This document shows positions 22,492 to 23,520 of a stretch of DNA of 34,233 nucleotides, piece by piece. A model generated the notes under the pieces. It ran no database searches. It worked only from the letters and a program-made list of their open reading frames with translations, and was not told where the DNA came from. The DNA is from Algoriphagus sp. (lineage in GTDB: Bacteria > Bacteroidota > Bacteroidia > Cytophagales > Cyclobacteriaceae): positions 1 through 34,233 of the forward strand of contig NZ_JAHEBC010000006.1 of the NCBI RefSeq assembly GCF_024642405.1. The letters are read 5' to 3'. Every line of letters begins with the position of its first letter. Positions within the stretch are counted from its first letter, which is position 1. The position numbers and the translations under genes are program-made.

Positions 22492-22965
22492 TTATTTCTC
22501 TTTATCAAAGAATTGAATAGGCCTGTTTATACTTTCTTCCAGTACAATAAGTGTTTCTGTTCTATCTATACCATCTACTTTCTGAATATTATCTAAAACT
22601 AATCTTAAGTGATTTGTGTCTCTGCATATAATTTTAGCAAAAATGGAATAGTTGCCAGTCGTATAATAGGCACTTACTACTTCAGAAATAGTTTTTAGTT
22701 TTTCAATCACATTGTCATAAAGCGAACTTTTTTCCAAATAGATTCCCAAAAAAGCCGATATATCATAGCCAAGTTTTGAGAAGTCTATGTTTAAAGTGGC
22801 GCTTTTCACAATTCCCATATCCTCTAATTTTTTCATGCGGACGTGAACTGTACCAGATGATACGAAAACCTTTTTTGCGATTTCTGTGTATGGAGTCTTC
22901 GCATCCTCATTTAAAAGTGAGATGATTTTTAGGTCAATATTGTCGATATCTAAAATTTTATCCAT
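22492..22965 (-). CDS. Lrp/AsnC family transcriptional regulator
   Basis: LDNIDLKIISLLNEDAKTPYTEIAKKVFVSSGTVHVRMKKLEDMGIV HTH plus RAM-type domain. Confidence 0.95.
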   Translation of the reverse strand: MDKILDIDNIDLKIISLLNEDAKTPYTEIAKKVFVSSGTVHVRMKKLEDMGIVKSATLNIDFSKLGYDISAFLGIYLEKSSLYDNVIEKLKTISEVVSAYYTTGNYSIFAKIICRDTNHLRLVLDNIQKVDGIDRTETLIVLEESINRPIQFFDKEK

Positions 22966-23044
22966 TTTCCTTTGTTGGATTTAGATGATTTTTAATGAAT
23001 GTGCCTGTAAATTAGAGGTTCTTCAAAAAATACCAAAATTTTTT

Positions 23045-23063
23045 TTTCAATTTGTAATTGAAA
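23045..23063. promoter_or_regulatory. Candidate Lrp/AsnC-type operator, perfect palindrome TTTCAATT-TGT-AATTGAAA
   Basis: 8-bp perfect arms, about 80 nt upstream of the lrp-like gene start. Confidence 0.45.
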
Positions 23064-23080
23064 CCAAAATCAGTTTACTT

Positions 23081-23100
23081 TGGCATTATTATAAATGCCA
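23081..23100. promoter_or_regulatory. Inverted repeat TGGCATT-ATTATA-AATGCCA
   Basis: 7-bp perfect arms, just upstream of the 23121 small ORF. Confidence 0.35.
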
Positions 23101-23120
23101 TTCGAATATTTGGTTTTTAC

Positions 23121-23195
23121 ATGAAACATTCAAATTTTAATTGGTTGTTATTAAAAACTCCAAATCTTCGAGCGTTATTTGATGGAAACTTTTAA
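23121..23195 (+). CDS. Candidate 24-aa small ORF MKHSNFNWLLLKTPNLRALFDGNF (small protein or leader peptide)
   Basis: ATG to TAA, followed about 31 nt later by a + strand intrinsic terminator; not in the ORF track. Confidence 0.35.
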   Translation: MKHSNFNWLLLKTPNLRALFDGNF

Positions 23196-23226
23196 TCTCT
23201 AAAGTTATATTTGGGTTTATATTCTG

Positions 23227-23257
23227 AAAAGGTCTTGCTTGTGGCAGGACTTTTTTA
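23227..23257 (+). terminator. Intrinsic terminator without an annotated upstream gene on the + strand
   Basis: AAAAGGTCTTGC-TTGTG-GCAGGACTTTTTT hairpin plus T-tract. Confidence 0.7.
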
Positions 23258-23520
23258 TTTAATGTAATCTCATTTATAACATTAAAGACACTTTTAAATA
23301 GCGAATTTTTAAAAATTATATTTTGACCGTCTTAGAATACAGTGGTTGATAGTCCATCATGACATTTTAATAAATAAAGATTCCACTTAGATATAACCAT
23401 TTATGCTGAATTCCGAAAAGCACTCTGTTTTTAGATATTTAAGGCGTTTACTTTAGCTTTTTTTTGAGCGGTTGTGTGGATTGTTTTCACTGTATTTATT
23501 TTGAACAAAAGAACCACACG

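Follow-up and report, generated by a model that had tools for sequence, protein, structure and literature searches.

A report of 2020 presented GibS of Bacteroides thetaiotaomicron as the first trans-encoded small RNA (sRNA) of the Bacteroidetes with mapped targets, which it represses by pairing at start regions without a Shine-Dalgarno sequence, and noted that Bacteroides has no evident homologue of Hfq or ProQ (PMC7366714). RsaE represses amino-acid catabolism (PMC9266662), and in enterobacteria the sRNA GcvB acts in amino-acid metabolism and has a dedicated regulator, GcvA (PMC3658693). In Vibrio, the level of gluconeogenic fbp is lowered by Vsr217, an RNA made from the malK 5' UTR under MalT (PMC8265627). 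Our literature search, whose coverage of subscription papers was thin, found no described sRNA for Algoriphagus or the Cyclobacteriaceae, and the RNA presented here apparently represents an undescribed sRNA family in another order of Bacteroidota. Computation shows a conserved non-coding transcription unit with conserved strand-specific complementarity at start codons. We read it with good confidence as a trans-acting, base-pairing sRNA, divergent from lrp, that represses gluconeogenesis and amino-acid catabolism through start-region pairing.

The window, that is, the whole stretch of 34,233 nt that was analysed, comes from Algoriphagus sp. (NZ_JAHEBC010000006.1, assembly GCF_024642405.1). A preliminary description had pointed to a 24-codon Leu-rich open reading frame (ORF) followed by an orphan plus-strand terminator, and both are present as claimed: an ATG at 23121 opens the 24-codon ORF MKHSNFNWLLLKTPNLRALFDGNF (23121-23195, + strand), whose product has five Leu, among them one Leu-Leu-Leu run, and whose TAA stop occupies 23193-23195; about 30 nt past this stop lies an intrinsic terminator of 15 pairs and a U-tract (23225-23257, + strand). 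No plus-strand gene stands before the terminator, the lrp/asnC gene at 22492-22965 being on the minus strand, and an M14 peptidase gene starts downstream. Terminator-like sites occur in this AT-rich window at chance level (5 seen versus 4.5 +/- 2.3 in shuffles), so conservation had to decide whether this site is real. On the comparative evidence it is conservation, and not the terminator pattern, that establishes the terminator and its RNA unit as real.

Searching 39 genomes of related species, we found the locus in 23 of the 24 same-genus genomes, with 87-95% identity over positions 23186-23260. Among these genomes the ORF part is not conserved and changes freely with insertions and deletions, and the best-conserved DNA of the locus sits past the ORF stop codon. 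The preliminary description had left a choice between a small protein and a small RNA, with peptide conservation as a check, and only the RNA withstood the comparison of homologues. Across 103 distinct homologues of the RNA locus, which formed the sample of our coding test, only 6 have an ATG ORF that runs to the same TAA (3-24 codons), no peptide resembling the window's 24-aa product occurred among the ORFs, and in the closest relatives of the window species the ATG and reading frame are missing. A Pfam search with the 24-codon product likewise returned no match. Translation of this ORF, with the terminator closing its mRNA, would fit the intact ATG-to-stop frame found right before the terminator in the window species, but it is made extremely improbable by the rarity of the frame, the lack of peptide resemblance, the conservation peak after the stop codon and the empty Pfam search, and the small-protein gene was rejected because the ORF is not conserved among homologues. 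Judged from these alignments, the 24-codon ORF is not a gene but an incidental, fast-evolving and variable 5' part of a predicted sRNA of about 140 nt. The alternative, an sRNA gene served by a promoter of Bacteroidota type and a terminator of its own, is in turn strongly supported by the sequence.

Promoter, terminator and conservation place the predicted ends of this sRNA at about 23119 and 23257 on the plus strand. Within an upstream block conserved in the genus and in other genera, a -33-type element, TTTACTTTGG (23074-23083, + strand, with TTTG at 23079-23082), is followed 22 nt after the TTTG by a -7-type element, AATATTTG (23105-23112, + strand; compare the Bacteroidota TAnnTTTG), and from these elements we infer that transcription starts at about 23118-23120. 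Using a loose pattern, a -33-like element followed by a -7-like one was detected in 76 of 103 loci, mostly with a spacer of 22-25 nt. The spacer of the window species also contains a perfect inverted repeat (GGCATT-ATTATA-AATGCC, 23082-23099), which is absent in relatives and is probably species-specific or a product of chance.

The RNA at 23119-23257 folds better than 199 of 200 shuffled sequences (z -3.09), and its whole-structure covariation score exceeds all 500 shuffles. It is laid out as a variable 5' part, a small hairpin, an open core of about 24 nt and the terminator. The hairpin, AACUUU-UAAUCUCU-AAAGUU (23187-23206, + strand), lies on the 5' side of the core in the RNAalifold consensus and is paired in 98.5% of cells, with variation so scant that covariation lends it little support. 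The core itself, AUAUUUGGGUUUAUAUUCUGAAAA (23207-23230, + strand), is mostly single-stranded in the consensus and complementary to the target leaders described below, and the terminator stem (23225-23257) is paired in 100% of cells across the alignment and held by compensatory and wobble changes. The 3' half of the RNA is nearly invariant and the core is conserved far beyond its flanking sequence, its 24-mer being exact in 58 of 61 Algoriphagus genomes, with one full-length RNA locus in each. No tRNA or tmRNA was found, and Rfam yielded no family at the gathering threshold and no RsaE match in a permissive scan. Weak Rfam matches to OrzO-P (on the opposite strand), STnc370 and AbsR25 were rejected, since they rest mainly on the terminator and are at chance level.

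An exact 28-mer of the core is found in 96 stretches of our genome collection, and named records place the group in Algoriphagus and its neighbours, Belliella, Echinicola, Cecembia, Aquiflexum, Indibacter, Mongoliibacter, Rhodonellum, Anditalea, Nitritalea and others of the Cyclobacteriaceae. Within this family the RNA was detected at E < 1e-16 in 31 of 149 genomes and 18 of 85 sampled genera. When a covariance model was run against 292 genomes of the order, strong matches appeared only inside the Cyclobacteriaceae, the remaining matches outside the family having E values from 8e-5 to 0.01. Three metagenome-assembled genome (MAG) records titled Spirosoma fluviale (L284, L292, L294) carry an Algoriphagus-type RNA locus, and their titles are probably mislabelled.

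Upstream of the RNA, the minus-strand gene at 22492-22965 encodes a regulator of the lrp/asnC family with HTH_AsnC-type and AsnC_trans_reg domains, whose best NCBIfam match, AsnC, falls below the NCBIfam cut-off. This gene lies divergently, about 220 nt upstream of the core, in all 53 loci checked. The downstream side varies: the peptidase gene that follows lies about 85 to over 800 nt from the RNA, depending on the species, and switches between M14 and S9 types. The RNA shares its strand with the M14 and S9 peptidase genes and in many species a peptidase gene comes next, as a cis-acting leader or attenuator of these genes would have it; the unit nevertheless has its own promoter and terminator, the leaders that its core matches belong to genes at other places in the genome, and the pairing of a conserved leader peptide with a conserved downstream operon that marks an attenuator was not found. 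Control of the peptidase genes by attenuation, already disfavoured in the preliminary description, was rejected because the downstream gene and its distance vary while lrp stays constant, and we hold it to be very improbable.

Members of the Lrp family sense amino acids, and the position of the gene suggests that Lrp may control the RNA from the DNA that separates the two genes. A block of about 50 nt between lrp and the promoter of the RNA (23010-23060; relatives read …TTCAAAATATTGCAAAATTTTTTTTTCAATTTGTAATT…) shows strong conservation throughout the genus and is a candidate for the lrp promoter together with an Lrp operator. The first lrp codons (22938-22965, - strand, ATGGATAAAATTTTAGATATCGA) are nearly invariant in DNA across genera, beyond what the protein needs. 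For the mRNA of the neighbouring lrp, a duplex with the RNA is predicted at -14.0 kcal/mol across a longer stretch of sequence, close to the 1% tail of the background, and we do not claim this mRNA as a target.

Secondary BLAST matches to the core, in about ten genomes, fell on the opposite strand of the pckA leader, directly before the ATG. In a set of PF01293 genes gathered systematically from Algoriphagus, the core was antisense to the translation start region of every pckA (PEP carboxykinase) gene (47 of 47), the window species included. Nearly all of them have UUUUCAG-n-UAAACCCAA directly ahead of the start (in the window's own genome the leader reads UUAUUUCAGUUUGUAAACCCAAUUUUCUAUG), and AAACCC is invariant (47/47). 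Predicted duplexes between the core and the pckA leaders average -25.0 kcal/mol, as against -8.5 kcal/mol (sd 2.1, minimum -16.5) for a background of 251 other 5' regions and -8.2 kcal/mol for 300 shuffled cores; AAACCCAA is absent from the 40 nt ahead of the start in all 251 background genes. In other genera of the family, pckA leaders paired more strongly when the RNA had been detected (mean -15.0, n=16) than when it had not (mean -10.5, n=13; one-sided Mann-Whitney p=0.007), and several RNA-carrying genera are without a clear pckA site (G113, G117, G170, G112). These results are best explained by pckA being the main conserved predicted target of the RNA. Most of the reduced Algoriphagus MAGs that retain the RNA (2.2-2.8 Mb; L014, L016-L018, L020-L024) show no pckA and no fbp, which either suggests that other targets uphold the RNA there or reflects incomplete assemblies; in two reduced MAGs (G001, G005) a glutaryl-CoA-dehydrogenase-like gene is preceded by a site.

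A search of the 61 Algoriphagus genomes with core and terminator, made without choosing genes, returned mostly pckA leaders after the RNA itself. Among 40 further sites outside pckA and fbp, a start codon lay at -6 to +30 nt on the antisense strand in 22 and on the opposite strand in 2; the survey consists of BLAST and pattern matches, taken as individual sites. The genes with start-region sites recur across species and have a common metabolic theme. They encode a Met/Cys PLP enzyme of the cystathionine gamma-synthase/methionine gamma-lyase superfamily, of which 17 of 17 close orthologues pair at -15 kcal/mol or better, phenylalanine 4-monooxygenase (Phe hydroxylase), 4-hydroxyphenylpyruvate dioxygenase (HPPD), histidine ammonia-lyase, a Glu/Leu/Phe/Val dehydrogenase, acyl-CoA dehydrogenases and an Fe-S electron-transfer protein, to which related matches added a 2-oxoacid dehydrogenase E1 and a glutaryl-CoA-dehydrogenase-like enzyme. 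The search made without choosing genes also returned start-region sites in fbp. Counted by eye, roughly 28 of 45 genomes carry a site of the TATAAACCCAAATATTG type in the fbp leader, which is degenerate in the window's own species. Outside the metabolic theme, a two-block match (CCTTTTCAGAATAAAACCCAACTATG) was seen in one species in the leader of a cation-efflux-type transporter gene (G024:C5:625499-625523, L372). In three species (L362-L364) the motif falls within the opening codons of a gene for a B12-binding protein of the methylmalonyl-CoA-mutase type (MTTIPESYKPKNH), which the RNA may target early in the coding sequence.

In the window's own genome, 22 of 95 examined TAAACCCAAW sites stand before a start codon, compared with 0 on the control strand. 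They include pckA and a 3-hydroxyacyl-CoA dehydrogenase gene and, assigned by sequence only, genes for an acyl-CoA carboxylase subunit and a 3-oxoacid CoA-transferase. The total count of the motif in this genome is not above that of the reversed-pattern control, leaving position and strand as the informative features, and A-rich leaders somewhat favour the target strand. In genome G087, where the RNA was not found, three TAAACCCAATG motifs overlap an ATG. Given the motif total and these three motifs, we treat the own-genome sites other than pckA as tentative. Sites ahead of the genes for a sugar porter, a SusC-like protein and several secreted proteins may be due to chance and are not claimed.

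The short, AT-rich motif shared by the RNA gene and its predicted targets could instead be the operator of a DNA-binding protein that happens to lie in the RNA gene as well as in the target promoters, with the RNA acting otherwise; in pckA it indeed lies only about 10-15 nt after a -7-type element. Its orientation is, however, fixed relative to the start codon (22 versus 2 sites, and 22 versus 0 in the own genome), in the RNA gene it lies about 90 nt inside the transcript, and in several genes the pairing runs over 20-28 nt. The commonest change beside the invariant AAACCC of the pckA leaders, A to G (27/47), moreover keeps a G-U pair with the RNA. An operator is, on these grounds, unlikely, and the data point to base-pairing between the RNA and the leaders.

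In the mechanism that we propose, the largely unpaired core of about 24 nt, held between the small hairpin and the terminator in the near-invariant 3' half, would pair in the cell with the short 5' leaders of target mRNAs (UUUUCAG-n-UAAACCCAAAUA) a few nucleotides before the AUG. Such pairing would cover the translation start region, keep ribosomes from loading and reduce the mRNA level, in the manner of GibS in Bacteroides. Pairing with the opposite outcome, in which the RNA activates or stabilises the mRNAs, has precedents in that some sRNAs activate and that GibS is reported to raise one transcript, possibly via a coding-region site (PMC7366714). We consider activation improbable here, as the leaders are very short and the sites lie right against the start codon, so that a duplex there should shut ribosomes out, and as GibS represses both targets that it pairs with at the start region (PMC7366714). 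Under the repressing mechanism, pckA would be the main target, with fbp and several amino-acid and acyl-CoA catabolic genes as further targets in various species, and the predicted outcome would be that the RNA, possibly controlled by its Lrp neighbour from the intergenic region that they share, restrains gluconeogenesis and amino-acid catabolism.

A near-invariant core goes together here with a predicted regulon that is coherent in theme and covers central carbon and amino-acid metabolism. A broader proposition, which we put forward as a tentative one with slightly less than an even chance, is that this is a clade-wide master sRNA of the Cyclobacteriaceae that, under the divergent Lrp, couples amino-acid status to carbon flow through a single invariant core of about 20 nt. 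If true, it would shut off pckA and fbp together with the catabolism of carbon derived from His, Phe, Tyr, Met, branched-chain amino acids and Lys/Trp, and would be a Bacteroidota counterpart of RsaE and GcvB on leaders without Shine-Dalgarno sequences. The locus also offers a system in which to ask how sRNAs act on mRNAs without Shine-Dalgarno sequences, with lrp as a clear genetic partner.

As a free-standing unit with its own promoter and terminator and no conserved coding, and with a conserved accessible segment complementary to several mRNAs elsewhere, the RNA agrees in its sequence features with the general class of trans-acting sRNAs. The gcvB gene is arranged divergently from gcvA, and the RNA gene is likewise divergent from an amino-acid-linked regulator in 53 of 53 loci, although the Lrp/AsnC family differs from GcvA. 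In contrast to our RNA, which has no match to the GcvB Rfam family, GcvB mainly targets amino-acid and peptide transport, with Hfq (PMC3658693). RsaE/RoxS of staphylococci and bacilli directs a C-rich UCCC motif against Shine-Dalgarno sequences (PMC9266662), whereas here a G/U-rich core faces AAACCC in leaders without them, and Rfam scans gave no sequence relation between the two. Vsr217 resembles the RNA in that both are directed, here by prediction, against the gluconeogenic enzyme gene fbp, its described trans target, but it is of unrelated lineage and origin. With GibS the RNA shares the phylum, trans-encoding and an extended, AT-rich, single-stranded seed against the start regions of metabolic mRNAs without Shine-Dalgarno sequences. 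Compared by description, GibS differs in having its seed in the unstructured 5' part, where our core lies in the 3' half by the terminator, and in its targets, its neighbours and its conservation, described as within Bacteroides. By analogy, GibS would be the closest precedent for the mode of action, and the best reading of the comparison is of an RNA with a GibS-like mode and a role like that of RsaE and GcvB.
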